This document shows, in pieces, positions 28,568 to 50,117 of a DNA stretch of 64,000 bases; position 1 is the first letter of the stretch, and every line of letters begins with the position of its first letter. Below the pieces are notes generated by a model. That model worked only from the letters and a program-made list of their open reading frames with translations, had not been told where the DNA came from and ran no database searches. The position numbers and the translations under genes are program-made. The stretch comes from Chryseobacterium soldanellicola. Its GTDB lineage: Bacteria > Bacteroidota > Bacteroidia > Flavobacteriales > Weeksellaceae. The stretch lies in NCBI RefSeq assembly GCF_900100115.1, contig NZ_FNKL01000004.1, positions 124,001 to 188,000 on the forward strand, given 5' to 3'.

Positions 28568-28584
28568 CCCCAAAATTCTAAACT

Positions 28585-28801: not shown

Positions 28802-28818
28802 AACAAAATTTTAAAACG

Positions 28819-29982: not shown

Positions 29983-30701
29983 ATAATACAACCGACATAA
30001 AAGACTATTTTGGCACCTTATACTATCCAAAATCTGCATTGGTTTTCTATGTAACCAAAGGAGCTGAAACCGATATGTATGTGGAGCATTTTGATATGGA
30101 CAGCAATGGAATACCTATCAATGCCCATCCATTAACCGTAAAGGAAGCTAACGTTTTAGTCAAGTCCTTACAGACCGATGAAGAAAAGAACCAAGCCTTT
30201 TTAAAACCAAAGGGAATCTTGTCGACCAATATCCTGCATATCAATCCGAATGCTGAAAAAGGTATGGCGCTATGGTACACCAAAACAGAACAACGAAAAC
30301 TATATTTTGTGGATAGTTTGGGCATACCTAATGGAATGGCACAAGTACCGCCAATGCTGTGGTTAGCGAGCAAAAGCAGTCTTTGTGTATTTGCTTTGAC
30401 AAGCGACAGAAGACCAACGGAAAAAACGCCATTGCATTATGCGCCTTTTTTCAATATCTACGAAAAAGGCAATGTATGTATGGGTACGGTGAGCATTGAT
30501 ATTACAAATTCGGCTTCGGTTGAGGAATTTATACAAGCTTGGGAACATTATTTTTTCAATTCCTATTTCAGCCATTCATTATGCGAAAACTTGACGAAAA
30601 AAAACATTGTGAACCTTTGGAAAGACCTTATCAATACTTATAAACCCTTTCCTAAAGAAGTATTGAAAAAGAATAATAAAACCCTTAAAAATCTATTGTG
30701 A
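29979..30701 (+). CDS. PRTRC system protein B
   Basis: A 240-residue protein, intact, with the PRTRC B pattern: an early beta-rich domain (ALVFYVTKGAETDMYVEHFD), KGILSTNILHINPNAEKGMA, WYTKTEQRKLYFVDSLGIPN, and a late NVCMGTVSIDI strand followed by WEHYFFNSYFSH. PRTRC cassettes (ParB-related, ThiF-related cassette) occur on plasmids and ICEs, and their function is unknown. Overlaps of four bases upstream and one base downstream show a tight operon. Confidence 0.78.
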   Translation: MNNTTDIKDYFGTLYYPKSALVFYVTKGAETDMYVEHFDMDSNGIPINAHPLTVKEANVLVKSLQTDEEKNQAFLKPKGILSTNILHINPNAEKGMALWYTKTEQRKLYFVDSLGIPNGMAQVPPMLWLASKSSLCVFALTSDRRPTEKTPLHYAPFFNIYEKGNVCMGTVSIDITNSASVEEFIQAWEHYFFNSYFSHSLCENLTKKNIVNLWKDLINTYKPFPKEVLKKNNKTLKNLL

Positions 30702-31506
30702 TGAATACGACAAAAACAGCAGTTCATTTTACGGACAACTATTTACTCAATCCTACCAACCGATTTCGGTAAACATTATCGGAGCAGGTGGCACAGGCTC
30801 AAAAGTATTGACCGCCTTAATGGAGATAAACGAGAGTTTGATAGCATTGGGACACGCAGGGTTGCAAGTCCGTCTTTGGGATGATGATGTTATATCGAGT
30901 GCTAATTTTGGCAGACAGCGTTTTGCAGAAAGTGAAACAGGATTATACAAATCCGTTGCTTTAATCAATCGGTGTAATCGCTGGGCAGGTACAAATTGGA
31001 AAGCCGAAACGATAAAATTTGAAAAAGACAATTTTGGCAGACTGCCCGAAAAATCAAGGGCAATAATTACCATTACTTGTGTGGACAATGTACAGGCGAG
31101 GTTTGGCGTAGCTGAAATTCTTAAAGAAATTACCTACCGCAGACATTACCAAGACGAGCCAAAATATTGGTTGGATTTTGGCAACAGCCAACATACAGGG
31201 CAAGTGCTACTATCCACTATTGGAGAGATAAAGCAACCCAATTCAGAGAAATACCAAACAGTGGCAAGCCTGCCATCTATTACCGATGAATTTGGCGAAT
31301 TACTGAAGCAATCCGAACAAGAAGACAGCACACCAAGTTGCTCACTTGCAGAAGCATTGGAATATCAAGATTTGTTCATCAATTCATCATTGGCACAGAT
31401 GGGTTGCTCCTTATTGTGGAACTTGTTTCGTAGGGGAATGACCGAATACAAAGGATTTTTTCACAATCTGAAAGATTTCTGCACCCACCCGATAAAAGTC
31501 GCCTAA
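30701..31506 (+). pseudogene. PRTRC ThiF-family protein, frameshifted near the start
   Basis: The ATG at 30701 opens with MNTTKTAVHFTDNYLLNPTN and then hits a stop after RFR. The conserved nucleotide-binding part P-I-S-V-N-I-I-G-A-G-G-T-G-S lies in the next frame and runs intact to 31506. Restoring one C in AACCG (30759-30762) would join both. The remainder has E1/ThiF features: VRLWDDDVISSANFGRQRF, TCVDNVQARF and a SCSLAEALEYQDLF segment. This is the third broken gene in one cassette. A start inside the second frame (30808) would lack the GxGGTGS loop. Confidence 0.75.
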
Positions 31507-35121: not shown

Positions 35122-35934
35122 ATGAAAAAATTATTTAGCGTCTTAATATTTGTTTTAGCAATCCATATTAAAGCTCAGGTTGGAGTTAACACTCAAACAC
35201 CTTCAGCAACTTTAGATATTGTCGGTAAACCAGATTTGCTCAATCATTTTGATGGAATAATTCCCCCAAGAATAACTGGTGACCAACTTGCAAATAAAAA
35301 TTATTCAATATTGCAAAAAGGTGCCATTGTTTACGTGACTCAACCTGCATCAAATCTTTTAGGGCAAGTCATTCATATTGTAGAAGAAGGTTACTACTAT
35401 TTCAATGGTCAGTATTGGAATCAGATGTTTAAAGAGCCTAATTATTACGATGCTCTCATCATATTGGACGAAACGCTTTCTGCAAATACTATTTCTGCGC
35501 AAACCTCGTGGAACACATACCTTCCTTTTCCTACAAATCCTCGGCAGCATACATTATCAACTAAAATATATAGATTAGGAACATCAGGTATGGGAATAAC
35601 TGGGCAAATTGATGCGAGGCGAATAGGAACAATTGGCTATTTGGATGTAAGTATAATTTGTTCAACACCCATCACGTCAAACTACGTAATACTGAATCTT
35701 TCAAAACCATTACGGGATTTAGGTTTTATGTCGGATGGGAGTGTGGGTTCACTGAACAATATTTTAGTAAGTGGGAACTCAAATGGAATTAGTTCAGGAG
35801 TAGAGCAGGGCATTATTTCATTAACGAACGTTGATTTCAATCTACTTCTTTGGAAAAATCAAATCGAAAAATTTACCGGTACCATAAAAGGCATGACCAT
35901 TTTTCCGATTAATTATCTGAATGTAATTGAATGA
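35122..35934 (+). CDS. Secreted surface-type protein, coupled to the mobilisation operon
   Basis: A 270-residue pre-protein with signal peptide MKKLFSVLIFVLAIHIKAQ. The mature start VGVNTQTPSATLDIVG is a motif widespread at the N-termini of Chryseobacterium-type secreted or surface proteins. A short domain with YYYFNGQYWNQ follows, then a beta-rich domain. The stop overlaps the start of the mobilisation protein by four bases (ATGA), so it is translated from the same message as the relaxosome genes. The function is unknown. A surface role in mating-pair contact is only a guess. Confidence 0.65.
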   Translation: MKKLFSVLIFVLAIHIKAQVGVNTQTPSATLDIVGKPDLLNHFDGIIPPRITGDQLANKNYSILQKGAIVYVTQPASNLLGQVIHIVEEGYYYFNGQYWNQMFKEPNYYDALIILDETLSANTISAQTSWNTYLPFPTNPRQHTLSTKIYRLGTSGMGITGQIDARRIGTIGYLDVSIICSTPITSNYVILNLSKPLRDLGFMSDGSVGSLNNILVSGNSNGISSGVEQGIISLTNVDFNLLLWKNQIEKFTGTIKGMTIFPINYLNVIE

Positions 35935-36299
35935 TAAATAAGAAGGATATTAAGAAGAAATATTACATTAAAATAAGGATTTCCATCATCCAGAAAGAAA
36001 AGTGGAAAAAAGCCTGTTCAGAAAAAAAAATCTCTTTAACAAGTCTGATTATTAATTCTGTTGAAAATAGATTTATGGACAACGAGAGAAGAAAAGTATT
36101 AGCGTTCATAGAAAAGCAGGATAACATCTTTGGAAAGATTGAAAACAATATTAATCAGGTAGCAAAAATAGCAAATAGTCAAAAATTTATCAGCGAAAAT
36201 GAAATCAGAAAATTCTCGAATAAGTTATCAGAGATCATAATTCTGAAGAAAGAACAGAACGAAATGTTTACAAAAATCTACGCAATGCTATCAAGATGA
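35931..36299 (+). CDS. MobC-like relaxosome accessory protein (RHH type)
   Basis: A 122-residue basic protein. The first ~50 residues (YIKIRISIIQKEKWKKACSE, then KISLTSLIINSVENRF) read as a ribbon-helix-helix DNA-binding domain, followed by NNINQVAKIANS, a motif typical of MobC/MobA-type relaxosome proteins. It probably binds oriT and recruits the relaxase. It overlaps both neighbours by four bases. Confidence 0.8.
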   Translation: MINKKDIKKKYYIKIRISIIQKEKWKKACSEKKISLTSLIINSVENRFMDNERRKVLAFIEKQDNIFGKIENNINQVAKIANSQKFISENEIRKFSNKLSEIIILKKEQNEMFTKIYAMLSR

Positions 36300-37786
36300 T
36301 TGTTAAGATTATGGATCCGGCAGGTTCCAGTTTTCCAGGAGTTCATTATAACGATAAGAAAATTGACAAAGGAACCGGAGAATTAATGCTGATGAAAAAT
36401 TTTCCTTCCTTTATCAACGAATCAAGCAGGAAGGAAGAAGTAAAAAACTATTTAAGAGCTATTTCGATAGGAAATAAAAAAGTAGTTAAACCTCAATTTC
36501 ACGCTGTGATCTCTACGAAATTTCAAGGACATTCGAAAGAAGAGATTACTAAGATAGCGGAGAATTTTATGGATGAAATGAAATATGGCGGACAGCCTTT
36601 CATTGTGGTTTTTCATAGTGATACCGATAATAATCACGCTCATATAGTTACTACAAGAGTCGATAGACAGACAGGAAAAAAGATCAATGACAGTTATGAA
36701 AGGCTTAAAGCCCAAAAAGCATTAAGCGTCACAATGGAAAAATTGTATGGTCAGAAACCGGAAGAAGAACTGGAAAAACTGCTGAACTACAAAATAAGTT
36801 CGCTTAATCAGTTGGCAACTCTACTCAATAGAAATGGATATAAGATAGGCAAAAACACAAATGATGAAAATTCTTTTAACATTTTAAAAAACGGGGTAAT
36901 ACAGCAAACACTTTCAGGAAATCAGATTGTTTTTGATAACAGTAAAAATGATAAAAGGGCAAAACAGATCAAAGCCATACTAAGCAAATACAAAGAATTG
37001 TATTCTAATAAGGTTTTTAAAGTGGAAGATAAAAGACATCAAGAATCTATGCTCCCAAAAGAAAAATTACGGGAAAATGATTTAAAAATAAAAATCGGTT
37101 TTGAAAGTGAGCTTCAAAAGAAGTTGAAAGATGTTTTCGGAATCGATATGGTTTTTCATCATAAAGAAGATAAAAATCCTTTTGGCTACACCGTGATCGA
37201 CCATAAAACAGGAAAATTATACAAAGGAAGTGATATTATGAAAATGAATGACGTGTTTGAATTTACTTCTGACAAACTTGATAAGAAGATTTTTGAAATA
37301 CTGAAGGATTATAATATCCGTAACCAGGAAACAAAAAATATCCTGATTGAATTTTTTAAGAAGAATAATCAGGAAGCGGAAATCAAGGACTTTATGCTTT
37401 TTGAGAACCGAGGAAAGAAAGATTTGGAAACCTACCGAAGAGTCCAATTTGAATTAAAGGACTTTATTAGAAATAGCAAAAACACAAATGATGAAAAAAA
37501 AGATATTTCTATAACAACTGGGGTAGACGGAAACCTTTATGCGGTTCATACCAGATTCCATTACGTCGGTGAACTTCAACAATTAATAGGAGAAAAGGAA
37601 TATCAAAAATTTCTGAATCCAAAAGGCGTAAATGAAATGCAGACAGAAAACCGGACCGAAAACAATGAGAAATCAGAATTAAACAAAGCCATTAACGAGA
37701 TGCTGTTTGAGTTAATGAAAAGTTCGGGAACTGCAAAAGACCCTGCTGAAAATGAATTCAAAAAAAGACGAAAAAAGAGACGATAA
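36296..37786 (+). CDS. Relaxase / mobilisation nuclease
   Basis: A 496-residue protein. The metal site is HSDTDNNHAH: His107, Asp109, Asn113, His114 and His116, the HxDxxxNHxH pattern of MobP-like relaxases. A putative catalytic Tyr lies near the N-terminus (VHYNDKKI, Tyr18). The C-terminal ~300 residues are charged and helical, as in CTnDOT-type relaxases. It would nick oriT and pilot the strand to the VirD4 coupling protein encoded downstream. Confidence 0.88.
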   Translation: MIVKIMDPAGSSFPGVHYNDKKIDKGTGELMLMKNFPSFINESSRKEEVKNYLRAISIGNKKVVKPQFHAVISTKFQGHSKEEITKIAENFMDEMKYGGQPFIVVFHSDTDNNHAHIVTTRVDRQTGKKINDSYERLKAQKALSVTMEKLYGQKPEEELEKLLNYKISSLNQLATLLNRNGYKIGKNTNDENSFNILKNGVIQQTLSGNQIVFDNSKNDKRAKQIKAILSKYKELYSNKVFKVEDKRHQESMLPKEKLRENDLKIKIGFESELQKKLKDVFGIDMVFHHKEDKNPFGYTVIDHKTGKLYKGSDIMKMNDVFEFTSDKLDKKIFEILKDYNIRNQETKNILIEFFKKNNQEAEIKDFMLFENRGKKDLETYRRVQFELKDFIRNSKNTNDEKKDISITTGVDGNLYAVHTRFHYVGELQQLIGEKEYQKFLNPKGVNEMQTENRTENNEKSELNKAINEMLFELMKSSGTAKDPAENEFKKRRKKRR

Positions 37787-37834
37787 AGTTGATAGAAAAA
37801 TCATCTTCAGTCCAATAAAAATCAACTAAAACTT

Positions 37835-38530
37835 ATGATCATCACATTTGCTACCCAAAAAGGAGGATCCGGAAAAACGACATTAGCCATCGCTTTTGCC
37901 AATTATATTTCCGCACTTTCAGAAAGTAAACTCAATGTTTTCGATTTTGATTATCAGAAATCATTCTATCACAAATGGAAAGAAGATGAGCTGTTGGAAA
38001 TTCCAAAATTGTACGATGTAGAAATTATTGGCGAGGAAGAAGAACAGCCTTTTTCAGACTTTGAAACTCTCATCAATTTAAAAGAAAGCGATGAGATTAA
38101 CCTCTTTGATTTGGCCGGAACGCTCGATGCAAAATACAGTGATTTGCTCATTTACAGTGATTTTATCGTAACACCTTTTGAGTATTCCGATGTTTCTGTA
38201 AAATCGACTTTGGTCTTCATCAATATGCTAGGACTACTGGAAAGTGAGGCCGAAAGAATATTTATTCGTTCCAAATATGATAAGGGTTACAAGTATCTGA
38301 ATCAGGAGGAAATGGACAGTGAGCTCGCAAAATATGGAATGCTGCTGCCAAGTCCGGTATTCAAAAGAAATTGCCTACAAACTATTAATACCAGAAGCCT
38401 GATAAGTAAACAAAAATATGCAGTAGAACATACATTCGATGAACTTATAAAATACATCAATGAAACCTCAAAAATCAAAATACAAGTAATTAAAAAGAAG
38501 GAAAAAATCAAAGATTCAATACCAACATAA
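37835..38530 (+). CDS. traA: ParA/MinD-family ATPase (TraA-type)
   Basis: A 231-residue protein with the deviant Walker A of ParA proteins at residues 9-16 (KGGSGKTT) and the DFDYQKS and FDLAGTLD segments that follow. CTnDOT-type tra operons begin with a ParA-like TraA. It may position or regulate the element's DNA, possibly with the repeat array at 34429. The C-terminal IQVIKKKEKIKD tail is basic. Confidence 0.8.
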   Translation: MIITFATQKGGSGKTTLAIAFANYISALSESKLNVFDFDYQKSFYHKWKEDELLEIPKLYDVEIIGEEEEQPFSDFETLINLKESDEINLFDLAGTLDAKYSDLLIYSDFIVTPFEYSDVSVKSTLVFINMLGLLESEAERIFIRSKYDKGYKYLNQEEMDSELAKYGMLLPSPVFKRNCLQTINTRSLISKQKYAVEHTFDELIKYINETSKIKIQVIKKKEKIKDSIPT

Positions 38531-38564
38531 AACAACGATTGACTGACAACTAAATCAATAAAAA

Positions 38565-39158
38565 ATGATAAAAATCTCACTTACCATTCTGGCTGTTTAT
38601 CTGATGTATTATGCAGGTAACATTGTATACGATCTGTTTCTGAAGAAAGAAAAAGAAAGTTATAAACAAGAGACTGAGGAATTTTCCTTGTGCGAAATTT
38701 CTGACCAGTACGAAGATCTTACTGCAACTATAGGGATTGAAGATGTAGAAAATCTCAACACTCCCAAATCCTTTAATAAAAATCCAATCCATTCCGATTA
38801 CACTGAAGGAAGTGAAGAAAGACAAGATCTGGAGTATTTGAGGGAACTATTTGAATCTGAACAAGATCTGGATGAATTCGATAATCCATCAAAAAAGGAT
38901 TTTACCGAAATGGAAAGCCAATCACATCCTAAAAAAGCTGAATCAAGCGAAGAGTCCCTTGAACAGAATGAAAAGACATCAACCGAAAAGGAAAATCAAA
39001 AACCTGACGAAGTGATTAGCGAAAACCCAATCACAGTTAGTGTAGACCAGGAAACTTCCAGAATAAAAGAATGGAAGGCGATGCTTAATCTTTCTGAAAC
39101 CCTGGTTCAAATGGTTGCGAACTACGACGGATACAAAGTTTATCAATCCATCATGTAG
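38565..39158 (+). CDS. Membrane-anchored acidic protein of the tra operon
   Basis: A 197-residue protein with one N-terminal membrane helix (IKISLTILAVYLMYYAGNIV), a long acidic, probably disordered middle, and a conserved-looking end (EWKAMLNLSETLVQMVANYDGY). It sits between traA and traE, where CTnDOT-type elements encode small uncharacterised TraB-D proteins. A gap of about 130 bases to traE may hold a second promoter. Confidence 0.6.
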   Translation: MIKISLTILAVYLMYYAGNIVYDLFLKKEKESYKQETEEFSLCEISDQYEDLTATIGIEDVENLNTPKSFNKNPIHSDYTEGSEERQDLEYLRELFESEQDLDEFDNPSKKDFTEMESQSHPKKAESSEESLEQNEKTSTEKENQKPDEVISENPITVSVDQETSRIKEWKAMLNLSETLVQMVANYDGYKVYQSIM

Positions 39159-39290
39159 GTAGTCAACTTAAACAAAATCTAACGTACTGATTATTAGACT
39201 TAACAGTGGATTTCCATCCGTTGTGCGGGACTTCTATGCCCAAAATTTAACACTCAATTGATTATTAACCCTTTATAAAATTTTTGAATT

Positions 39291-39614
39291 ATGATGAAAA
39301 ATTTTTTCGCAAAAAACGTGACAACAAAAAAAGTTCTAACCCTAGCCTTAGCAATTATGGCGATAACCCCAGCATTTGCCCAAGGTGGTGCAACAGCAAT
39401 TTCGAATGCTGCAAGTGATATTACAGATTATTGGGACCCCGTAAAGCTGATCTTGAAAGCAGTGGGAGGATTGGTTGGTTTCATCGGAGGTCTTCGGGTT
39501 TATAACAAATGGACGAATGGCGACCAAGATGTCAACAAAGAGATCCTTGGTTATGGAGGAGCGATGATCTTCTTGATTGTAGTTCCGGAATTCGTAACAG
39601 CATTCTTCGCTTAG
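39291..39614 (+). CDS. traE: TraE-type conjugation protein (DUF4134)
   Basis: A 107-residue membrane protein. Signal-like start (LTLALAIMAITPAFAQ), then GGATAISNAASDITDYWDPV and two hydrophobic segments with GGLVGFIGGLRVYNKW and GGAMIFLIVVPEFVTAFF. These are hallmarks of DUF4134/TraE, which corresponds to a VirB2-like component of the Bacteroidota T4SS. One base separates it from traF. Confidence 0.9.
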   Translation: MMKNFFAKNVTTKKVLTLALAIMAITPAFAQGGATAISNAASDITDYWDPVKLILKAVGGLVGFIGGLRVYNKWTNGDQDVNKEILGYGGAMIFLIVVPEFVTAFFA

Positions 39615-39615
39615 G

Positions 39616-39933
39616 ATGGGATTTTACCTTTATAAGGGGCTGAAAAAGCCCCTTGTATTCTTCGGACTCAAAGGGAAGTACATCTTTTACGCAGTTGGTA
39701 TTATCGGAGGCGGGGTCATTTCAGCATTGGTACTCTCGAAGTTCGGTCTCTTAGGATCTTTACTGGGTCTCACAATCACCGCCGGAGGTGTTTATCTCAT
39801 TTTCAGAAGACAGGACAAATATGGTTTGTATGACAAAACCAAAAACTTCAATCAGATATTAATTTTTCCAAAAAGGTTAGACAGTAAAAAACTTTTAAAG
39901 AATGGCAACAACAACAAAAAAACAAGCATTTAG
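39616..39933 (+). CDS. traF: TraF-type conjugation protein (DUF4133)
   Basis: A 105-residue protein with two adjacent membrane helices (FGLKGKYIFYAVGIIGGGVI and GSLLGLTITAGGVYLIF) and the YKGLKKP start typical of DUF4133/TraF, a VirB3-like component. The C-terminal 11 codons overlap the start of the traG frame, a common coupling in this operon type. Confidence 0.9.
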   Translation: MGFYLYKGLKKPLVFFGLKGKYIFYAVGIIGGGVISALVLSKFGLLGSLLGLTITAGGVYLIFRRQDKYGLYDKTKNFNQILIFPKRLDSKKLLKNGNNNKKTSI

Positions 39934-42900
39934 CATTCCCTTTATCGGCTATGATTATGCAAAAGATTTCAATTGGGATTTTGACGTACTTTTCGGACAC
40001 TACGGGAATCCGATTATTGGCATAAGGATAAAAAACATTGTAGAACAGTACTCGGCGGATCCGGATAGCTATCTCAATTTCCACACAGTGTTAAATCATG
40101 TGGTATCGATCATTGGAGAAGGAAGAATTGTTCAGAAGCTCGATATTTTTTCTAAAAAAAGATACACCGCTGAACAATCAAACCAATTTTTACAACAAAA
40201 ATATTCGGAACATTTTGACGGCAGGCTTTTCAAAACCATTGAAACGGTGCTTTTGTTTACAGATATCATCGATGATCAGCTGAAAAAGAAAATGAAGCAT
40301 TATCATTTTTCAGATAAAAGCTACAAAGAATTAAGGGATAAGTGCCAAAAAGTATTGATGCTTTTGAAGCAGAACAATTGTGAACCTGAGTTTCTATTTA
40401 AGAAAGATTTCGAATACTATATTTCCGGAGTTTTGTCGATGCAGTTTACCGAATCTCCGGTATTCGATAATATAAAAAGCACCAACGAATTTTTACAAAT
40501 AGGAAAAAGGTTTGTAAAAAACATCTCTTACGTGGATGTCGAAAACATCGATTTACCATCGGAAATTGAACCTTATTCTATTCTCGGCGGCAATGGTGCC
40601 GCAGCAGAAACGGCTGTAGATAATTTCAGTTTTATCAATGAACTGGAAGACTACGAAACGATTGTCTATAACCAGATCATTAATATTCCGCTTCAGGCAC
40701 AACAACAAAGGGAGCTTGATAAAAAAAAGAAAAAGCACGAAGGAGCAGCTAACAATTCTCCGTCCAACGCGATTATAGCAGATGAAATTCAGACCCTGCT
40801 TCATAATATAGCGATTGACGGACAGCTCGTTGTCAATGCTCATTTTTCAATCTTATTTTCCGCAGATACTTTGGAAAAAATGGAGAACATTCAGTCGATG
40901 ATTGAAAATAAGCTTTTTACGAAAGGAATCATTGTTTCTAAAAATGCCTATAACCAATTGGAACTCTTTCGGTCAGCGATTCCGGGTAACGGAACAGAAC
41001 TCAGGGAGTACGATCTATTTATGACGACAAGCGAAGCGGCCTTGTGTTTTTTTTTTAAGGAAAGTTACCCTGTCAATGAAGAATCGAATTTCTACCTGAG
41101 ATTTACAGACAGACAAGGCGTTCCGCTGAAAGTAGACCCATCAGATTTGGCGATGAAAACGGGAAGAATAAACAACAGGAACAAGTTTGTTTTAGGACCC
41201 AGCGGGTCAGGCAAGAGTTTTTTAATGAATAATATCATCGAACAATATCTTACTTATAATTATGATGTGGTCATTGTTGATACAGGAGATTCTTATTCGG
41301 GGACATGTAAATACAAAGGAGGCAGATATATCCAATACACCGAAGAAAAACCGATCACGATGAATCCTTTTCTGATGGATAAAAAAGAATTTAATATCGA
41401 AAAAATCGAATTTTTAACCAACCTGATCTTCCTGATTTGGCAAGGTCCTGATTCTTCGATGTCATCAGCACAAAAGTCCATATTAGATAATGTATTGATG
41501 TCCTATTACCATCAATATTTCAACTCAGGAACGCCGTGGTATGAAAATAAAACTTCTGAAGAACTCATTCTATATTTGGGTAAATACAACATTCACGAAG
41601 AGGATCTTTTTTCTGAATATGAGAATGAAGCCAAAGGACAGCATACATATTATGATATACTAGGAATTGCTTTCGACGCCAGTTCCGATGAAATAAAAGA
41701 AGCAGGAAGAAAATTGTTGAAATTTTATCATCCTGATAAGAACATCAATAATCCTGAATATGAAAGTGAAAATTTCTATAAAGTCTATGAAGCGTATGAC
41801 ACGCTGAATGATGAAGAAAGAAGGAAGATATACAATGAAACTCAGCTGATTTTACTCAAGTCGAATGACATCATCAGACAACCCAGATCAGATGAAGAAT
41901 GGAATGAATCTTTTAGAAAAGCGATCATCAGGAAAATTAAGGAACTGGAAGAAAAGCTAGTGGTGACGGAGCTTTCGTTCAATGGCTTTTATGATTATTG
42001 CGATCAATTTCTTCCTATTTACTTAAATAACAAGAAACATAATATCATAGAAAAGGAATTCAATCTTCGCACATTTTTGTTTGTGCTGAAAGATTTTTAC
42101 AAAGGCGGAAGGTATGGAACAACACTAAACGAAAGTGCAGATAATACGCTTTTTGACGAATCTTTCATCGTTTTTGAAATTGATAATGTAAAGGATAATC
42201 CCAAACTCTTTCCGATTGTAACACTCATTATTATGGACACTTTCATTCAGAAAATGCGCCTTAGAAAAGATCGCAGAAAAGCCTTGATAATTGAAGAAGC
42301 GTGGAAGGCCATTGCGAGTAAATTAATGGGAGGCTACATCCTTTATTTATATAAAACGGTGAGGAAATTTTGGGGAGAAGCTGTGGTGGTAACGCAGGAG
42401 CTGGATGATATTATTGGGAATGCGGTTGTAAAAGATTCTATCATCAATAATTCAGACACTTTTATATTGCTTGACCAGACCAAATTCAAGGACAATTTCG
42501 ACAAGATTGCATCACTGCTTTCACTCAATAAAGTAGAGCAAAACAAGATTTTTACTATCAATAATCTGAATAATAAATTTGGTAGAAGTCGTTTTAAAGA
42601 ATTTTACTTGAAACGAGGTTCCAAAGGCGAAGTCTATGGAAATGAGGTTTCATTGGAGCAGTATTTAACCTATACCACAGAAAAACCTGAAAAATCAGCA
42701 GTTGAATATTATGTACATCAATATGGCGACTATGATGAAGCATTGCGCAGAATAGTTGGTGATCTCAAAACCTTCGGAGACAGTCTGGAAAACTTGGTGT
42801 CACTCGTGAACTTATATCAAAATCCATTGGATGATAAAATCAATTCCTTTTACAGAATGATGAAAAAAGAACACAGAGGGATGAATGTTTTTAAAGTCAT

Positions 42901-42973
42901 CTCGCAGGAATTGGAAGAACGTAATATCAGTTTTTCAGAATTCGTAAATAAACAACAATATGAAAAAATATAG
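39902..42973 (+). CDS. traG: TraG conjugation ATPase (VirB4-type) with an inserted DnaJ J domain
   Basis: A 1023-residue T4SS ATPase. Walker A is GPSGSGKS (residues 432-439) and Walker B lies in ALIIEEAW (794-801); the C-terminal VVVTQELDDI and FILLDQTKFK segments are typical of TraG. Between the Walker motifs, residues ~581-650 form a complete J domain: YYDILGIAFDASSDEIKEAG, then KFYHPDKN with the HPD at 610-612, then FYKVYEAYDTLNDEERRKIY. Related TraG proteins have about 800-850 residues and carry only a variable charged stretch at this place. J domains stimulate Hsp70 (DnaK), so the ATPase may recruit a chaperone. That consequence is inference, while the domain is clear. Confidence 0.92.
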   Translation: MATTTKKQAFSIPFIGYDYAKDFNWDFDVLFGHYGNPIIGIRIKNIVEQYSADPDSYLNFHTVLNHVVSIIGEGRIVQKLDIFSKKRYTAEQSNQFLQQKYSEHFDGRLFKTIETVLLFTDIIDDQLKKKMKHYHFSDKSYKELRDKCQKVLMLLKQNNCEPEFLFKKDFEYYISGVLSMQFTESPVFDNIKSTNEFLQIGKRFVKNISYVDVENIDLPSEIEPYSILGGNGAAAETAVDNFSFINELEDYETIVYNQIINIPLQAQQQRELDKKKKKHEGAANNSPSNAIIADEIQTLLHNIAIDGQLVVNAHFSILFSADTLEKMENIQSMIENKLFTKGIIVSKNAYNQLELFRSAIPGNGTELREYDLFMTTSEAALCFFFKESYPVNEESNFYLRFTDRQGVPLKVDPSDLAMKTGRINNRNKFVLGPSGSGKSFLMNNIIEQYLTYNYDVVIVDTGDSYSGTCKYKGGRYIQYTEEKPITMNPFLMDKKEFNIEKIEFLTNLIFLIWQGPDSSMSSAQKSILDNVLMSYYHQYFNSGTPWYENKTSEELILYLGKYNIHEEDLFSEYENEAKGQHTYYDILGIAFDASSDEIKEAGRKLLKFYHPDKNINNPEYESENFYKVYEAYDTLNDEERRKIYNETQLILLKSNDIIRQPRSDEEWNESFRKAIIRKIKELEEKLVVTELSFNGFYDYCDQFLPIYLNNKKHNIIEKEFNLRTFLFVLKDFYKGGRYGTTLNESADNTLFDESFIVFEIDNVKDNPKLFPIVTLIIMDTFIQKMRLRKDRRKALIIEEAWKAIASKLMGGYILYLYKTVRKFWGEAVVVTQELDDIIGNAVVKDSIINNSDTFILLDQTKFKDNFDKIASLLSLNKVEQNKIFTINNLNNKFGRSRFKEFYLKRGSKGEVYGNEVSLEQYLTYTTEKPEKSAVEYYVHQYGDYDEALRRIVGDLKTFGDSLENLVSLVNLYQNPLDDKINSFYRMMKKEHRGMNVFKVISQELEERNISFSEFVNKQQYEKI

Positions 42974-43613
42974 CATTTTATTTTTAGGTTTTGGAAGTTT
43001 TCTTTATTCGCAAAACACCTACATAGACCCAACGTTAACGGCGGCAATGATTCTCTATTCTGAAAATCTGAAAGCCAAACAGAATGAAGTCATTGAAGAA
43101 ACTTCAAAGTTAAAAGATGCACAAACCTGGGTCGGAACACAGATGGTTGCAGCCAATGACATTCAGAATAAAATTCTGAAAGGCTTGAAAGAAGTTTCAG
43201 GAACATTACAGAACGGAATTCAGGCACAGGAAATCTACTCTGAACTCAATAAATGCTACAATTATTCATCTCAGGTTGTTCAATTGGCTTCACAACATCC
43301 TGAATATGCTATTTTTGGAGTTAAAGCTTCACAAAAGACGTATGAGCAAAGTCTAAAGATTGTGACCGATGTATCTGACATTCTCGCATCCGGAGAACTG
43401 AATTTGGCTACTGCAGGAGATCGATATAAAATCCTTCATAATATTTCCGGTAATGTGAAAAATCTAAAGCTTTGGCTTTTGGCGATAAAGTTACGATTGG
43501 AAAAAGCCAATCGATTAGGATTCTGGAATTCAATTAATCCATTTGCCGGCTACATCAATACCGACAAAGGTATTGTTGAAAGTATAATGAACAGGTACAA
43601 ACGGAATTTTTAA
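42960..43613 (+). CDS. TraI-like (DUF4141-type) secreted T4SS protein
   Basis: A 217-residue protein with a signal peptide (MKKYSILFLGFGSFLYS) and long helices. The core YSSQVVQLASQHPEYAIFGV recurs in the third gene downstream, and the C-terminus (NTDKGIVESIMNRYKRNF) shares a motif with the next three products. It overlaps traG by 14 bases. The position directly after traG is that of TraI in CTnDOT-type operons, so I assign it as TraI-like. Likely periplasmic. Confidence 0.65.
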   Translation: MKKYSILFLGFGSFLYSQNTYIDPTLTAAMILYSENLKAKQNEVIEETSKLKDAQTWVGTQMVAANDIQNKILKGLKEVSGTLQNGIQAQEIYSELNKCYNYSSQVVQLASQHPEYAIFGVKASQKTYEQSLKIVTDVSDILASGELNLATAGDRYKILHNISGNVKNLKLWLLAIKLRLEKANRLGFWNSINPFAGYINTDKGIVESIMNRYKRNF

Positions 43614-43624
43614 ATTTTTCTATT

Positions 43625-44311
43625 ATGAAAAAAAGAATTCTTTTAAGCCTATTTATTCCCGCTGTTTATTTTGTATTGACATCCTCCGGTGGTGGCTCTA
43701 CACCTGCTTGGCAACAGGAAAATGTATCATTTCCGATGATGGATCTGGAAATCAATGCCACGATGAAAGAACACGACAGGCAAAAAGAAATGCGTCAAAA
43801 ACAAACAGCAAATGCCACCGTAGAAACTGCCAACAGAGCCCAATGGAACCAATTCAAGGAAAAGATTACCAAAGTTCAGGACAGACTGCGAATTGTTTCA
43901 TTTGCCATTCAAGCGATACCCACCGGAATAGCAATGAGCAGGGAAATAACCAAAATAACAAACAATCAGACCGCTATTATCAATGAAATAAACGATGCTC
44001 CTTATTCCATTATCGCTGTTTTACCTTCCCAGGTTCAGTTTATTGATGATCTTCAAATGGTAACAAGACTCGTAATGGGAATCGTGATTTCTTACGGTGC
44101 CATCAATCAAATGGAAAAATCAGAACGTAAAGTATTATTAGACTATGCATTAGGCGAAGTAAAAACATTGAGCAGGAATTCCACACATATGCTTTTGAAG
44201 ATAAGGGATATTAAAGCCAAAGTAAAACGTAACAAAAGAGCCTTTCAATATTATGTCAATAGGGATAAGCAAGTAGTGGAAAACATCATGAATCACATCA
44301 AATCCTTTTAG
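43625..44311 (+). CDS. T4SS operon protein, helical, exported
   Basis: A 228-residue protein with a hydrophobic N-terminus (LLSLFIPAVYFVLTSSGGGS) and helical rest. The C-terminus RDKQVVENIMNHIKSF follows the shared pattern of this gene group. Eleven bases after the TraI-like gene and two bases before the next. It probably forms part of the periplasmic T4SS assembly. Family not recognised. Confidence 0.6.
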   Translation: MKKRILLSLFIPAVYFVLTSSGGGSTPAWQQENVSFPMMDLEINATMKEHDRQKEMRQKQTANATVETANRAQWNQFKEKITKVQDRLRIVSFAIQAIPTGIAMSREITKITNNQTAIINEINDAPYSIIAVLPSQVQFIDDLQMVTRLVMGIVISYGAINQMEKSERKVLLDYALGEVKTLSRNSTHMLLKIRDIKAKVKRNKRAFQYYVNRDKQVVENIMNHIKSF

Positions 44312-44313
44312 AA

Positions 44314-44979
44314 ATGAAGAAAATAGTAACCATTGGAATGTTGGTGTTTTCAGGAATCACTTTTAGCAGCCAGCAAATAGTTATTAACGACAAACTTCTG
44401 TCACAAATCACCGTAAACCATGGTGTTCGATTAGGAAGTGAGCAAACTTTTTTGGATTCCTATGAAAAGCAAAAAGAACTCTACGATGATATCAATAACA
44501 AAATAACACAGATCATTACGATTCAAGAGTATATCTATCAACAACTGAAAAATGTGAATTCGGCGCTTACCCAGAGTAAAAAACTTATTTATCTCTATCA
44601 ATATTTAGGTAAAATAGTGACGAACTCCAATAAAATGCTTGATCTATCAGCGCAGCATCCTGAATACGCCGTCTTGGTTTCAAAATATTATGTTGAGATA
44701 GGTAAGCAAACAATGAAGCTTCAACAAGAAGTTACCCAGGATATTCTCAATGAAGACAAAGATTTTCTGATGGATGCGATGGATAGAGAAATGCTGATTG
44801 AAAAGATATTTACAAGAGTCAGAAATATCAACGGAAATATTCTGTACATCAATTTACGGTTAGAGAATGCGAAGAAGATTCCTTATCTGTATCAGGTTCC
44901 GGTCCTCCGCAATTACATCAATATAGACAAAGCCATTGTTGGCGACATCATCACTAAATACCATCACCTTTTTAATTAA
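44314..44979 (+). CDS. Paralogue of the TraI-like protein
   Basis: A 221-residue exported helical protein. The middle segment SNKMLDLSAQHPEYAVLVSK aligns with the QHPEYA segment of the protein at 42960, and the tail NIDKAIVGDIITKYHHLF aligns with the other tails. This indicates a duplicated family inside the operon. The signal is MKKIVTIGMLVFSGITFSS. Confidence 0.62.
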   Translation: MKKIVTIGMLVFSGITFSSQQIVINDKLLSQITVNHGVRLGSEQTFLDSYEKQKELYDDINNKITQIITIQEYIYQQLKNVNSALTQSKKLIYLYQYLGKIVTNSNKMLDLSAQHPEYAVLVSKYYVEIGKQTMKLQQEVTQDILNEDKDFLMDAMDREMLIEKIFTRVRNINGNILYINLRLENAKKIPYLYQVPVLRNYINIDKAIVGDIITKYHHLFN

Positions 44980-44985
44980 GAAATT

Positions 44986-45816
44986 ATGGAAAATCTACTA
45001 AAAAAAATCAGTCTATTTCAATTTCTTTTGATTGCAATTTCCCTGTTTGGACAAGTCAGTGTGAAGAGATTAAATGACCCTTCCATTGTTGCTCAACATA
45101 AAAGAATGGTCTTTCAAGATTGGGGAGATTGGAGGCCTTATCCAAAATATTTTTTAGGCATTCAAACCAATTTTGCTTATGCCACGGTATGGGGAATGTG
45201 GGCTCCAAAAATCAACAGGGATTATAAAGATGGGGAAGACATTCGACCATTAAAACCGACAGGGGTTCAAAATCAAAGATTTGCTCAATTGAAGTTTCAG
45301 GAGGAAGAAGCAAAAAAAATAAAGGCAGCTTCAGATACCATTCATAAAAGAAGTGTTCAGGATTTTGCCCATTGGACTTCGACAACGGTCGATGCCGATC
45401 CTCTTTGGCTTTTGTATTACAAACGAATGCTAAAACCTATTACTGAATTTCCTGATACGCCTCAAAACTTTATCGAATGGCGGCTGAAAGACCAGCAAAC
45501 TTTTGAAACACTCAGTAATACAGGTACTATAACACGGCTTCAGGAAGAATTGGATCTCATCAAAGAAAAATATTCAATGTCGAGAAGTATGGATATGCCA
45601 AGGGGCAAACGGTTCATTATGTACCACGAAACCCTTATCAAGTGGAGAAAATTTGTACGAGAGTTAAGGAAGCACAATAACAAGACAACACTGCTTACAG
45701 ATTACAAAAACATTTTAAAGAACCATTCAAATTATGCTTTACCACAAGCTTGGGCTCCGGCATCAGACCAGCAAATTGTTCAAAATGTAATGAACCACTA
45801 TAAACACCGATTTTAA
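44986..45816 (+). CDS. T4SS operon protein with shared C-terminal motif
   Basis: A 276-residue protein with N-terminal signal (ISLFQFLLIAISLFGQV), an aromatic-rich middle (QDWGDWRPYPKYFLGIQTNF) and the tail ASDQQIVQNVMNHYKHRF, again the shared pattern. It lies six bases after its neighbour and two bases before traJ. Likely a periplasmic component; function not known. Confidence 0.6.
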   Translation: MENLLKKISLFQFLLIAISLFGQVSVKRLNDPSIVAQHKRMVFQDWGDWRPYPKYFLGIQTNFAYATVWGMWAPKINRDYKDGEDIRPLKPTGVQNQRFAQLKFQEEEAKKIKAASDTIHKRSVQDFAHWTSTTVDADPLWLLYYKRMLKPITEFPDTPQNFIEWRLKDQQTFETLSNTGTITRLQEELDLIKEKYSMSRSMDMPRGKRFIMYHETLIKWRKFVRELRKHNNKTTLLTDYKNILKNHSNYALPQAWAPASDQQIVQNVMNHYKHRF

Positions 45817-45818
45817 AA

Positions 45819-47051
45819 ATGAATAAAACAACCTTATTATTTTGCCTTTTGACAATATTACTGCCAATTATTGGCTTTGCTCAAACAGATGGCGATTACA
45901 GTAATCTACTCCAATTTTTAAAAGGTGACGGTGCTTTTGAGAAATGGTTTATGGAAGTTTTTACAAAGCTGGATAACAGCGTACAAGATAGTGCTGCCGG
46001 TTCTGCTTTGGTAGGAAAAGCAATCGGAGGTTTAGGTGCTCTGATGTACCTCGGATATATCGGTTGGCAAATGGCAGCCGGAGACAGAGAATGGGAAATC
46101 ACCCCGATGCTGAAACCAATTCTTATAGGATTTACCCTTGTTTACTGGAGTGGATTTGTCAGTATGATTCAGGCACCATTTGAGGCCATTGCCGAACCGG
46201 GGATTTCAATTTTCAGCGAGATAGAATCAGAAGTTAACGACTTAAGGGTCGAGAGATTTAAAAAGCAGCAGCAATTACTCGATGCTGTCATCAAATTAAA
46301 GGCGGAAGAAGATGCCAAACAGGAAGTTATTGAAAATACCACTGAAGATGCAGATGATTCGTGGTATGACATCAGTGAGGGATTGGATAAATTAATCCAA
46401 CCCATCAAGGAATGGTCCATAAGAATGGAGTTCCAAATGCAAAAATTAGTGGCAGAACTTATTGAATTTTGTTGCCTTTCCATTCTTCGGATTTGTGTAT
46501 ATCTCATTTTCTTCATTCAAAAAATATGGTCTTATATTTTAATTATTTTAGGACCGATAGCTGTTGGAATGGCTCTTATTCCCGGATTTGAAAATTCATT
46601 ATACAGTTGGGTCTCAAAATTCATCAACATTAATCTTTACACTTTTGTTGCCTATACGATCATCAATATCGGTCAGCAACTCATCGCTTCCGGTTATACA
46701 ATGGAGATCGAAAGGTATGATACCTTATTATCCAATGGAACCATTACCAACTTAGACGCTTTAATGGTCTATATGAGTAATTCGGGTATGATCTACAACC
46801 AGCTTTTTACCTGTGTTGCCTATGTTGTAACCGGCATCGGGGTTTTGATGACTCCAACTATTGCAGACAGTATTGTTTCAGCAGGAGGAGCCGGAGCAAT
46901 GACGAAAATGAAAAGTGCCGCAGGAAAAATGGCGAGCAGTGCTAAAACAGCAATATTGGCTGCCAAATCAGGAGGTGCTTCAGTAGCAGCAAGTGTAGCA
47001 GCAGGTTCCGCTTCGGGAAGGGTTAAGGAAGCGATGAAAAACGGAAAATAA
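45819..47051 (+). CDS. traJ: TraJ-type inner-membrane channel protein (VirB6-like)
   Basis: A 410-residue polytopic protein. After a signal-like start it has DNSVQDSAAGSALVGKAIGG, several membrane segments (KPILIGFTLVYWSGFVSMI, LILGPIAVGMALIPGF, LFTCVAYVVTGIGVLMTP) and an Ala/Gly/Ser-rich end (GGAGAMTKMKSAAGKMASSA). This matches TraJ of Bacteroidota conjugative elements, equivalent to VirB6. It lies two bases after the upstream gene. Confidence 0.87.
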   Translation: MNKTTLLFCLLTILLPIIGFAQTDGDYSNLLQFLKGDGAFEKWFMEVFTKLDNSVQDSAAGSALVGKAIGGLGALMYLGYIGWQMAAGDREWEITPMLKPILIGFTLVYWSGFVSMIQAPFEAIAEPGISIFSEIESEVNDLRVERFKKQQQLLDAVIKLKAEEDAKQEVIENTTEDADDSWYDISEGLDKLIQPIKEWSIRMEFQMQKLVAELIEFCCLSILRICVYLIFFIQKIWSYILIILGPIAVGMALIPGFENSLYSWVSKFININLYTFVAYTIINIGQQLIASGYTMEIERYDTLLSNGTITNLDALMVYMSNSGMIYNQLFTCVAYVVTGIGVLMTPTIADSIVSAGGAGAMTKMKSAAGKMASSAKTAILAAKSGGASVAASVAAGSASGRVKEAMKNGK

Positions 47052-47069
47052 TCACAAAAAACACCACAA

Positions 47070-47684
47070 ATGCTTATTAAAAACATAGAACAAAGAATCA
47101 AGATCAACAAGATTATTTCAATCTCAACCATTGCTTTTGCTGTTTTCATTGTTATTGCAGGGTTTTTCTTTGCTTACAGAATGATTGAAGATTCCAGAAA
47201 ATCAATTTACATTTTAGACAATGGTGTTCCGGTACTTGCAAAGCAGACAGATGTGTTGCTGAACCGACCAGTTGAATACAAAGCTCAAATAGAATTATTC
47301 CACCGACTGTTTTTCACACTCGCTCCTGATGACACCTATATCAAGGATAATATTCAAAAGTCATTGTATCTCATTGATGACAGCGGAAAAAAGGAATATA
47401 CAAACCTAAAGGAAAAAGGTTTTTACAATCAGATCATCGCCTCCAGTTCGATGGTCAGTATCCATACCGATTCAATCACGCTGAATATGGAACTAAAGAA
47501 ATTTAGCTTTTTCGGGAAACAGATGATCACAAGAAAATCTTCTGTCATTACCAGAAAGCTCATTACGGAAGGCTTCTTCGAAGACATCATTAGAAGTCCC
47601 AATAATCCTCACGGTGTGATTCTTAAAAACTGGCGAATCATCAATAACGAAGAACTATCCAATCAAAATAAAAACTCTTACTAA
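47070..47684 (+). CDS. traK: TraK-type conjugation protein (VirB8-like)
   Basis: A 204-residue bitopic protein: short cytosolic start, one membrane helix (ISTIAFAVFIVIAGFFFAYR), then a periplasmic domain with ELFHRLFFTLAPDDTYIKDN, as in TraK/VirB8 proteins. It links inner-membrane and outer parts of the secretion channel. It follows traJ by 18 bases. Confidence 0.87.
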   Translation: MLIKNIEQRIKINKIISISTIAFAVFIVIAGFFFAYRMIEDSRKSIYILDNGVPVLAKQTDVLLNRPVEYKAQIELFHRLFFTLAPDDTYIKDNIQKSLYLIDDSGKKEYTNLKEKGFYNQIIASSSMVSIHTDSITLNMELKKFSFFGKQMITRKSSVITRKLITEGFFEDIIRSPNNPHGVILKNWRIINNEELSNQNKNSY

Positions 47685-47685
47685 A

Positions 47686-48039
47686 ATGGAAACTACATTA
47701 AAACAAAAGGGTCAGAAATGGCTACAGTGGGCAGTTCAAAATCCAAAGAAATTCTTTATGTATTCAATGATTCTACTGTCTGTTTCATTTATTGGGTCTC
47801 TCATTCAGGGCATATTTTTCCCTTCCGACACTACATTCAAAATTAAAACTCCGGTTATCTATTCTAAGAGTAAGATGAGTCAAAATACACCTGTGAACAA
47901 TGATAAAGAGATGGAGAAAATTGTGAACGAACTGAAAACTTTAAAAGTAAAAAGAGACCAAAATGCTTTGAAAAAAGAAGATAGCTTACGAATTGATTAC
48001 CTGTTTAACCAATACCAAAAATTAAAAAATGAACATTAA
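47686..48039 (+). CDS. Small membrane protein of the tra operon (TraL position)
   Basis: A 117-residue protein with one membrane helix (FFMYSMILLSVSFIGSLIQGI) and a charged C-terminal coil. One base after traK and overlapping traM by 11 bases, it takes the TraL (DUF3989) position, but sequence resemblance cannot be confirmed by eye. Confidence 0.6.
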   Translation: METTLKQKGQKWLQWAVQNPKKFFMYSMILLSVSFIGSLIQGIFFPSDTTFKIKTPVIYSKSKMSQNTPVNNDKEMEKIVNELKTLKVKRDQNALKKEDSLRIDYLFNQYQKLKNEH

Positions 48040-49243
48040 AAAAATAAATTTTAAAGAAAAAAAATATGTTTTGCCACTTCTGGCTTTACCGTTTCTTTTT
48101 CTTTTCGGATATGTAGGAGCGCAGTTTGTCAAAGAAGACACATCTGAAAAAGATAAACCAAAAGAATTGTCTCTTTCATTAGGTGATACGCAGGATTCCA
48201 TTATGACCAAAAATGATGCGTATGATGCGTTTTTCAAAAAAGAGGATAACAGAACGATGCTTGGTGGTTTGGATAAAGAAGAAGATAGTTTATTGAACTA
48301 TGATGACCAATTGTCACTTGAGCAAAAAAGAAAAATTGATTCACTAAAAGCAGAAAACGGAAGACAAAACAGATATCAGGCGAAAGGAAATCAATCCTCG
48401 TATTACAAACCAAATCAATCACAAAGGGATGATAAGGATTACAAAAGATCTTCTGAGATCATCAAAATGCTGAATGAAAAATCCTACGGAAATGAGGGTG
48501 ACAAATTCACTGGTATACAAAAGGAAAAAACTCAAATCACCCAGCTGGATCCTGTAAAATACCTGAAAGAACAAATGCTCGTGATGGATTCTTTAGAAAA
48601 ATCCCGTGATCCTGAGTACCAAACTAAACTCGCAGCAGAACAGAGACTGAAATCAAATAAAGAAAAAATGGAAGATTTTCTCAACTCAACTTTCAATGTG
48701 AGCAAATCGGGTATTAACAGTGGTTTTAATGCTTTCTATAAGGAAAAAGTAAACAGTTTTATCAAAGCGGTCATTGACGAAAACAACAAAGGGTTTTTAG
48801 GAAGTAGGATCAGATTCCGCTTGTTGGAAGACATCTTTGTTGGAAACAAAAAAATAATAAAAGGTTCGATTTTATACGGACAAATCTCAGGATTTTCAAT
48901 GCAAAGAGTCAATCTCAATATTGTATCTGTATTCACAAAAGGAGAAATCTATCCGGTCAATCTTTCGATTTATGATGTTGACGGGATGAAAGGATTGTAC
49001 GTTCCGCAAAGTGTTTTCAGAGATATGGTGCGGGAAATGGGAACCAACTCGGTTCAGGGCACACAGATGGATATGGACGGAAAAGGATTCTTCTCAAGCA
49101 TCGGAACCAGCCTGTTTACATCAACATCCAAATCTATTGCCAATCTCATCAAAGAGAACAAAGCAAAATTAAAGTACAATTCTTATGTCTTTCTCATCGA
49201 CGAAAAGCAACTGAAAGATTTACAAAACCAACAAAAAAAATAA
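48029..49243 (+). CDS. traM: TraM-type conjugation protein (VirB10-like)
   Basis: A 404-residue protein: short cytosolic start, membrane helix (PLLALPFLFLFGYVGAQF), a long disordered, charged periplasmic linker, and a C-terminal globular domain with IKGSILYGQISGFSMQRVNL and DVDGMKGLYVPQSVFRD. This is the layout of TraM/VirB10 proteins that span the periplasm. The start overlaps the previous gene. Confidence 0.88.
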   Translation: MNIKKINFKEKKYVLPLLALPFLFLFGYVGAQFVKEDTSEKDKPKELSLSLGDTQDSIMTKNDAYDAFFKKEDNRTMLGGLDKEEDSLLNYDDQLSLEQKRKIDSLKAENGRQNRYQAKGNQSSYYKPNQSQRDDKDYKRSSEIIKMLNEKSYGNEGDKFTGIQKEKTQITQLDPVKYLKEQMLVMDSLEKSRDPEYQTKLAAEQRLKSNKEKMEDFLNSTFNVSKSGINSGFNAFYKEKVNSFIKAVIDENNKGFLGSRIRFRLLEDIFVGNKKIIKGSILYGQISGFSMQRVNLNIVSVFTKGEIYPVNLSIYDVDGMKGLYVPQSVFRDMVREMGTNSVQGTQMDMDGKGFFSSIGTSLFTSTSKSIANLIKENKAKLKYNSYVFLIDEKQLKDLQNQQKK

Positions 49244-49247
49244 AACA

Positions 49248-50117
49248 ATGAGAACTTTATTATACACCCTTTTAATATTCACAGCTCAATTTTTGACGGC
49301 TCAAACTGCAACCAAAGAACAGATTATTTCCGATTTACCGGAGATTGAAATTACTGAAGGGATCAACCTTCATATTATTTCACCGGAACCAATTCAATAC
49401 GTCGATTTGTCAACAGAAAAACTAACTGGAGATTTGCCTGCTACAAATATTGCCAGAATAAAAATCACAGATCATCCTGATTCAGATGAGAAAGGAAAAA
49501 TCAAAACACCAACTGTTTTTTTTACTGGTAATAAAATCGGAGTGATAACCGTGGTTGCGCAGTCTTTCATCGCACAGTACAAAGTTGTTTACAGAAACCA
49601 GGACAACCTCAATACTATTACCAATATCCATATTCAACCCGAAGCAATGCAGCCTGTAGAGTTTGATAAAATGGTTTTTTCAGATCTTGAATTAAGAAAA
49701 TTCGCAATGGACATTATTCAGAAAAAATCTGAGAAAAATCCGATAAGGGAAGAAAAAAATCTCAAACTAAGCTTTCAGCTCAATAATGTCTATGTAATTA
49801 GTGATTACATCTTTTTAGATATGACCATCAAAAATAATTCAAACCTAAGCTATGACATTGAGGATTTGAAATTTTCCTTAGAAGATAAAAAAATCCATAA
49901 AGCAACTAATAATCAAAGTGTAGATCTTATCCCAATTTTACAACTGAATCCCCAAAAACACTTCAGAAAAAATTTCAGGAACATCTATGTTTTCAAAAAA
50001 TTTACTTATCCAAACAGTAAGGTAATGATGATTCGTCTGATTGAAGAACAACTTTCTGGGCGCACAATCGAAATGAAGGTCAACTATTCTGAAATTCTTA
50101 AAGCTGATACTTTTTAA
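49248..50117 (+). CDS. traN: TraN-type conjugation protein (VirB9-like, DUF4138)
   Basis: A 289-residue pre-protein with signal MRTLLYTLLIFTAQFLTAQ. Beta-rich mature part with GINLHIISPEPIQYVDLST, FTGNKIGVITVVAQSFIAQY and a C-terminal domain with LDMTIKNNSNLSYDIEDLKF, typical of TraN/DUF4138. It forms the outer-membrane core with TraM. Four bases after traM. Confidence 0.87.
   Translation: MRTLLYTLLIFTAQFLTAQTATKEQIISDLPEIEITEGINLHIISPEPIQYVDLSTEKLTGDLPATNIARIKITDHPDSDEKGKIKTPTVFFTGNKIGVITVVAQSFIAQYKVVYRNQDNLNTITNIHIQPEAMQPVEFDKMVFSDLELRKFAMDIIQKKSEKNPIREEKNLKLSFQLNNVYVISDYIFLDMTIKNNSNLSYDIEDLKFSLEDKKIHKATNNQSVDLIPILQLNPQKHFRKNFRNIYVFKKFTYPNSKVMMIRLIEEQLSGRTIEMKVNYSEILKADTF

Follow-up and report, generated by a model that had tools for sequence, protein, structure and literature searches.

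The window analysed here is a stretch of 64,000 nucleotides from a contig of Chryseobacterium soldanellicola, and it carries a conjugation operon on its forward strand. The open reading frame at 39902-42973 (+) encodes TraG, a VirB4-type ATPase of 1023 residues of the kind found in conjugative elements of Bacteroidota. The operon is composed as follows.

36296-37786, +, relaxase, MobB-like (PF03432, 2.2e-21; NF041325 below cut-off)
37835-38530, +, ParA-like ATPase (profile matches)
39291-39614, +, TraE, DUF4134, probable VirB2-like pilin (PF13572, 3.2e-26; TrbC/VirB2, 0.031, below cut-off)
39616-39933, +, TraF, DUF4133, probably VirB3-like, judging by its position (PF13571, 5.2e-5, just below cut-off)
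39902-42973, +, TraG, VirB4-type ATPase with an embedded J domain (PF19044, TIGR03783, VirB4 fold)
42960-45816, +, four consecutive hypothetical ORFs of 217, 228, 221 and 276 residues (homologues in both plasmid stretches that carry the J domain)
45819-47051, +, TraJ, VirB6/TrbL-like (TIGR03782, 1.3e-24, and PF04610, 7.6e-5, both below cut-off)
47070-47684, +, TraK (TIGR03781, 5.1e-66)
48029-49243, +, TraM (PF12508, 1e-35; TIGR03779, 2e-43, below cut-off)
49248-50117, +, TraN, DUF4138 (PF13595, 7.2e-45)
50426-52417, +, VirD4-type coupling protein, MobC of Bacteroides nomenclature (PF10412, PF12696, PF02534 and PF14293 above cut-off; NF041326, 2.8e-156, below cut-off)
52419-53258, +, M23 peptidase (PF01551, 6.3e-27)

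Homologues of the relaxase, ParA, TraE, TraF, TraG, TraJ, TraK, TraM, TraN and VirD4 are present in all six plasmid stretches compared, two of which encode a TraG with the J domain and four a TraG without it. Since these genes are shared by both kinds of stretch, the operon around the J-bearing TraG is otherwise ordinary. Four genes (35931-36299, 47686-48039, 53251-53958 and 56032-56712) are matched only by the two J-bearing plasmids among the stretches compared. They were not accepted as companions of the J domain, as the difference may be one of divergence only, the J-less stretches being more distant and, except for pBFY46, partial. The four hypothetical ORFs downstream of traG have C-termini that look alike by eye (VMNHYKHRF, IMNRYKRNF), and they are possibly paralogues.

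Elsewhere in the window there is a PRTRC cassette at 28009-31506, with PRTRC_E at 28009-28395, PRTRC_B, which contains a prokaryotic E2 family D domain and scores just below its NCBIfam cut-off, at 29979-30701, and the PRTRC ThiF protein at 30808-31506. A regulator of the RteC type (20723-21589; PF09357, 2e-67) is encoded, as in the conjugative transposons of Bacteroides. At 56709-61892 a protein of 1727 residues with a GTG start combines an Eco57I-type methylase region with an SNF2/helicase region, and shares 67% identity over 1561 residues with its counterpart on plasmid p1 of Chryseobacterium sp. JJR-5R.

The J domain embedded in TraG

The features of TraG that bear on the argument are given below, with residues numbered along the protein.

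41195-41218, +, Walker A, GPSGSGKS, residues 432-439 (columns invariant in the alignment)
41465-41524, +, helix 522-541 preceding the insert (aligns with the pKM101 TraB helix bearing the VirB11-binding residues E591, E594 and A598)
41525-41641, +, N-terminal linker of the insert, residues 542-580 (missing in J-less TraG; pN/pS 0.268)
41642-41842, +, J domain, residues 581-647, Pfam DnaJ 582-645 (Pfam match, predicted helices, structural matches)
41729-41737, +, HPD motif, residues 610-612 (invariance in the alignment and codon data)
41843-41971, +, C-terminal linker of the insert, residues 648-690, which include a helix predicted at 664-685 (pN/pS 0.220)
42281-42304, +, Walker-B-like motif, ALIIEEAW, residues 794-801 (columns 794 and 798-801 invariant; 795-797 at 90% or more)

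A sequence-only reading of the window had claimed a full J domain inside a TraG/VirB4 ATPase. This is borne out by the Pfam DnaJ profile PF00226, which is matched over its whole length (positions 1-63 of 63) by residues 582-645, with an E-value of 3.9e-18 and a score of 65.7 bits against a cut-off of 27.8; the residue numbers given in that reading for Walker A, Walker B and the HPD motif were likewise correct. The remainder of the protein is recognised as TraG by PF19044 (P-loop_TraG), in two stretches with an E-value of 6.2e-130 and 434 bits against a cut-off of 25.8, and by NCBIfam TIGR03783, with 468.5 bits against a cut-off of 261.55. The J domain lies between Walker A and Walker B, both of which are intact, and is carried by an insert of about 145 residues in one loop of the helical subdomain of the ATPase.

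A six-frame search of the whole host genome yields five matches to PF00226, all above cut-off, among which TraG ranks fourth; its frame is the longest of the five, at 1024 codons with the stop against 374, 307, 258 and 152. Among the 14 Pfam families that match TraG at E-values up to 1, there is neither the zinc finger nor a C-terminal client domain of DnaJ, and the J domain is thus assigned to class C by exclusion. TraG contains no stretch resembling a membrane helix (its best 19-residue hydropathy is 1.3), which is consistent with a cytosolic protein.

Structure prediction, which the sequence-only reading had proposed as a check on the J fold, gave four J helices, at 583-587, 595-608, 622-636 and 638-655/657. 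The full-length model has a mean pLDDT of 62.9, with the Walker A region below 50 and the blocks of the J domain (581-650) at 75-85, while the model of the C-terminal part has a mean of 71.5, with the J blocks at 64-89. In the latter, the RecA-like strands are followed by helix 522-541, the insert, comprising the four J helices and helix 664-685, and then helix 693-708; the insert is fixed between helices 522-541 and 693-708. Structural comparison was carried out with VIA-align on these predicted models, whose confidence is fair (fair to poor at full length). The C-terminal model matches VirB4 in 4ag6 (Z 16.6, rmsd 4.2 over 305 residues) and J domains, best that of 4wb7 (Z 11.6, rmsd 1.6 over 72). 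The full model matches TrwK in 7o41 (Z 29.0 over 352) and the DnaK-bound J domain in 5nro (Z 9.1, rmsd 1.7 over 62), and its structural matches also include chains of the mitoribosome and the radial spoke. When the profile A1 was run against PDB sequences at 1e-15, no match was obtained. A single chain is thus predicted to combine the VirB4 fold with a four-helix J fold.

Conservation, distribution and origin of the insert

The HPD motif, whose loss among close homologues would have refuted the earlier reading, is kept in all 82 distinct proteins of the alignment (the window's own copy, a further distinct row, was left out) and in 80 of 80 loci from a genome collection, these being the best 80 of 121 relatives. 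The loci were found by scanning with peptide patterns at positions 21-983, none of which falls within 581-647. Copies without the J domain could therefore have been found, yet there are none among the best 80 of 121. The presence of the motif in relatives from other genomes rules out an artefact or a peculiarity of one strain.

The codons beneath the motif vary silently. In 53 sequences the histidine is encoded by CAT 43 times and CAC 10 times, the proline by all four of its codons (CCC 17, CCG 15, CCT 14 and CCA 7), and the aspartate by GAT 41 times and GAC 12 times. Because the residues are invariant across relatives while all three codons have undergone silent change, a chance origin of the motif is ruled out. 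Estimated over 557 pairs, pN/pS comes to 0.159 in the J domain, below the 0.268 and 0.220 of the N- and C-terminal linkers; it is 0.051 and 0.048 in the two ATPase parts, 0.089 in the N-terminal part of the protein and 0.241 at its C-terminus, all of these being rough values as silent sites are close to saturation. By these ratios the J domain is evidently under purifying selection.

Ten columns of the J domain are invariant: Y584, L587, H610, P611, D612, A631, Y632, L635, R641 and Y644. Five further positions, which we take to be contacts with DnaK, are nearly or fully uniform in kind among the 82 proteins, namely 599 (K in 76, R in 6), 603 (R in 81, K in 1), 613 (K in 78), 614 (N in 80) and 625 (F in 78, Y in 4). 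The column equivalent to Tyr25 of the E. coli protein, presumably also a DnaK contact, is occupied by Gly in 54 of the 82 proteins and by Phe in 27, and this counts against recruitment of DnaK. Helix II of the J domain (601-609) occurs in two forms, one resembling AGRKLLKFY, with Gly at 602 in 54 of 82 proteins, and one resembling AFRKLAIEY, with Phe at 602 in 27 of 82, the second being nearer to ordinary J domains.

Full-length TraG with the J domain is present in 12 of 59 genomes of relatives, that is, in the window's own genome and in 11 of 35 others of the genus, at 77-96% identity. In the genome collection, the best 80 of the 121 relatives share 68-97% identity with the query and match it over nearly its whole length, one locus (L105) only up to residue 897. 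They come from Chryseobacterium, Epilithonimonas, Kaistella, Cloacibacterium, Elizabethkingia, Empedobacter, Weeksella, Moheibacter, Halpernia, Riemerella and Capnocytophaga, among other genera. With at most six candidates scored per genome, among the matches listed, at least 20 of 395 genomes in a sample of the order match a profile built on the insert together with the adjoining TraG sequence, all of them from the window's own family by the taxonomic codes used, and at least 3 of 395 in a sample of the phylum do so, all from its genus. A second phylum sample contains strong matches in 8 of 394 genomes, three with the J domain and five without it. Among the eight plasmids examined, from 2950 matching records, a J-bearing TraG is encoded by p1 of Chryseobacterium sp. 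JJR-5R and by pWB8 of Sphingobacterium faecium, a species placed in another class by the taxonomy of its record. As the gene is found on plasmids and in few of the sampled genomes, the system is mobile but patchy, and the element occurs mainly in Chryseobacterium-like bacteria.

Several genomes have two or three copies of the J-bearing TraG (L037/L069, L041/L061/L062, L038/L040 and L039/L048), for example those of Chryseobacterium daeguense, Epilithonimonas tenax, E. hispanica and C. balustinum. On the contig of one metagenome-assembled genome (L047) the gene is split over two frames, by an assembly error or a real break.

In a tree of 52 rows, built with the insert excluded, the 30 rows that carry the J domain form one side of a branch, with an SH-aLRT support of 100 and a stem of 1.66 (by a quick method with no bootstrap). 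On this tree the J domain is the product of a single gain. In eight nearby J-less rows, proteins of 814-854 residues, the same loop has 3-8 residues. Inserts with no J domain occupy it in two Mucilaginibacter plasmids (112 residues) and in Bacteroides and Phocaeicola (107-108 residues), and it has 56 residues in five loci on viral contigs (L150-L154); in the viral contigs tblastn found four and six loci, and the five used aligned as J-less. The inserts of 107-112 residues have at least two separate origins on the tree, and as these unrelated inserts are present in four J-less rows, the loop tolerates additions. By this alignment and tree, inserts thus entered the loop more than once, and the J domain once. 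The existence of syntenic J-less sisters indicates that the J domain is an acquired module and not a core need of the system.

Repeated insertion at this site in VirB4 is seen in the Mucilaginibacter, Bacteroides and Phocaeicola plasmids (L139, L144, L141 and L143). A hidden J domain in these four inserts was considered and dismissed, as they have no match to DnaJ at E-values up to 1.

Position on the VirB4 motor and possible work of the J domain

Passages of Mace et al. (PMC9259494) report that E591, E594, A598 and Y619 of the pKM101 VirB4 protein, TraB, each matter for the binding of VirB11, and TraB of R46 has the same letters at 591, 594, 598 and 619. By hhalign, E591, E594 and A598 lie on the helix running up to the insertion point, respectively 15, 12 and 8 columns upstream of it, and Y619 maps 31 columns past it, in a gappy stretch of the alignment. 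The alignment of VirB4 with TraG is weak near the loop (E-value 7e-8, 19% identities), and the map is built on R46 TraB alone, because the VirB4 reading of the R388 record disagrees with the PDB chain in a short segment; HMMER places the equivalent helix of the TrwK chain identically. The loop that received the J domain thus aligns directly after the helix corresponding to the VirB11-binding helix of pKM101 VirB4.

VirB11 itself was sought with PF00437. The host genome has no match above cut-off and three weak matches, and none of seven related plasmids has one above cut-off, with one weak match; both controls, R388 and R46, are positive. In the five J-less plasmids with homologous operons PF00437 is below cut-off as well, so that the J domain is no simple substitute for VirB11, and the idea of a straight replacement was given up.

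Conservation of the chaperone-calling residues across the whole branch suggests that the host Hsp70 takes part in the work of this conjugation machine. We consider it probable, with some reservation, that the insert is a working class C J domain which recruits DnaK to the cytosolic side of the VirB4 motor ring; the host genome encodes one full-length DnaK, at C5:370124-371905. From what J domains do in general, the domain, exposed on the cytosolic helical subdomain, would bind DnaK in its ATP state and trigger hydrolysis of that ATP at the ring. DnaK would have free access to this site, since the surface that carries VirB11 elsewhere adjoins the loop and no VirB11 was found. Less certainly, the bound DnaK may then clamp a protein segment where the motor has its base, and this segment could belong to VirB4 itself or to a pilin pulled from the membrane. 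By acting on VirB4, DnaK might load or release the ring, or switch it between pilus building and DNA transfer, much as auxilin-bound Hsc70 acts on clathrin. The J-less plasmids with homologous operons speak against a general need for the J domain, and the tolerance of the loop for other inserts also counts against the preferred reading.

Recruitment of DnaK could serve other ends. The J domain may serve the ATPase itself, with DnaK folding, assembling or dismantling the VirB4 ring during biogenesis and having no part in transport. For this there is the position of the domain in cis, within a 1023-residue member of a family of hexamer-forming ATPases, and the precedent of auxilin, a J protein that drives disassembly; as other VirB4 proteins of this family and size class, which lack the domain, still assemble, this reading is possible but doubtful. 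DnaK might also be brought to the relaxase or another substrate, unfolding it or holding it unfolded before it passes the channel. The helical subdomain in which the J domain sits would fit such a role, as its counterpart in VirD4, an all-alpha domain, recognises substrates according to passages of two papers (PMC12624023, PMC6536674). That function, however, is assigned to VirD4 and not to VirB4, the domain matches of the element's own VirD4 (50426-52417) include no J domain, and homologues of the relaxase are encoded by J-less plasmids too, all of which makes the reading unlikely.

It is more improbable still that the J fold is a structural spacer or relic, a rigid arm in a loop that accepts inserts, with no Hsp70 involved. 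Other inserts do occupy the same loop in J-less relatives, and structural proteins with a J fold exist, as the mitoribosome and radial-spoke matches illustrate, but retention of HPD in 82 of 82 proteins over silently changing codons, and of the other presumed DnaK-contact positions, is not what one expects of a spacer.

If DnaK is recruited to the motor ring, as preferred here, we favour the ring, or a pilin at the base of the motor, over the relaxase as the client, the relaxase being the cargo of VirD4. In passages of a 2025 review (PMC12624023), VirB4 is described as extracting the VirB2 pilin together with VirB11, and the ring as rearranging at the start of transfer; how VirB4-type motors convert ATP hydrolysis into pilin extraction is stated there to be unknown. 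A bolder scheme of Hsp70-assisted conjugation, which we regard as rather unlikely, would have DnaK docked on the face of VirB4 that VirB11 uses, its cycles providing a second source of energy for pilin extraction or ring switching, and conjugation being tied to the chaperone state of the host.

Relation to known systems

TraG and J domains are both old families; it is their fusion in this loop that is new. The J-less VirB4/TraG proteins of Bacteroidota (TIGR03783, PF19044) have the same Walker motifs, P-loop_TraG domain, VirB4 fold and operon, and differ in the loop after residue 541, where the J-bearing protein has about 145 extra residues and they have 3-8, 56, or 107-112 without a J domain. 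With class C J proteins (PF00226), TraG shares a complete J domain with HPD and the J fold; in TraG, however, the domain lies inside another enzyme, between Walker A and Walker B, and is no stand-alone co-chaperone.

A J domain and a ring ATPase are also combined in one chain in the large T antigen of polyomaviruses, a protein of mobile elements that calls on the host Hsp70. There the J domain is N-terminal and not placed within a secretion ATPase, the ATPase is an SF3 helicase and the element is an animal virus. In Sec63 and auxilin, a J domain brings Hsp70 to a membrane machine or a protein coat. Chains of Sec63 are among the matches. Both are separate proteins that lack an ATPase domain. 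VirB11 of the pKM101/R388 type binds VirB4 at a helix that, in the alignment, immediately precedes the J insert; unlike the J domain it is a separate hexameric ATPase (PF00437), and it is below cut-off in these elements.

A DnaJ-domain gene of pGIAK1 is separate from the plasmid's VirB4 gene, according to passages of PMC3756968, and a DnaJ-domain gene and TraG appear as separate genes in passages of PMC10434189. No description of a J domain in TraG/VirB4 was found in the full-text literature searched, which omits most subscription journals, so that an earlier mention may exist elsewhere. In the plasmid records, the annotation given to the J-bearing protein is TraG family ATPase.

A motor with a built-in recruiter of Hsp70, alongside syntenic sisters that lack it, amounts to a natural experiment on pilin extraction. 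If the proposed role is true, it would be a clear case, in bacteria, of a mobile element that integrates a chaperone of its host into the transfer apparatus. The system is also relevant to the spread of resistance, since plasmid pWB8 carries, at 35154-44589 and by the predictions of its record, the resistance genes blaOXA-347, estT, floR, erm(F), tet(X2) and sul2.
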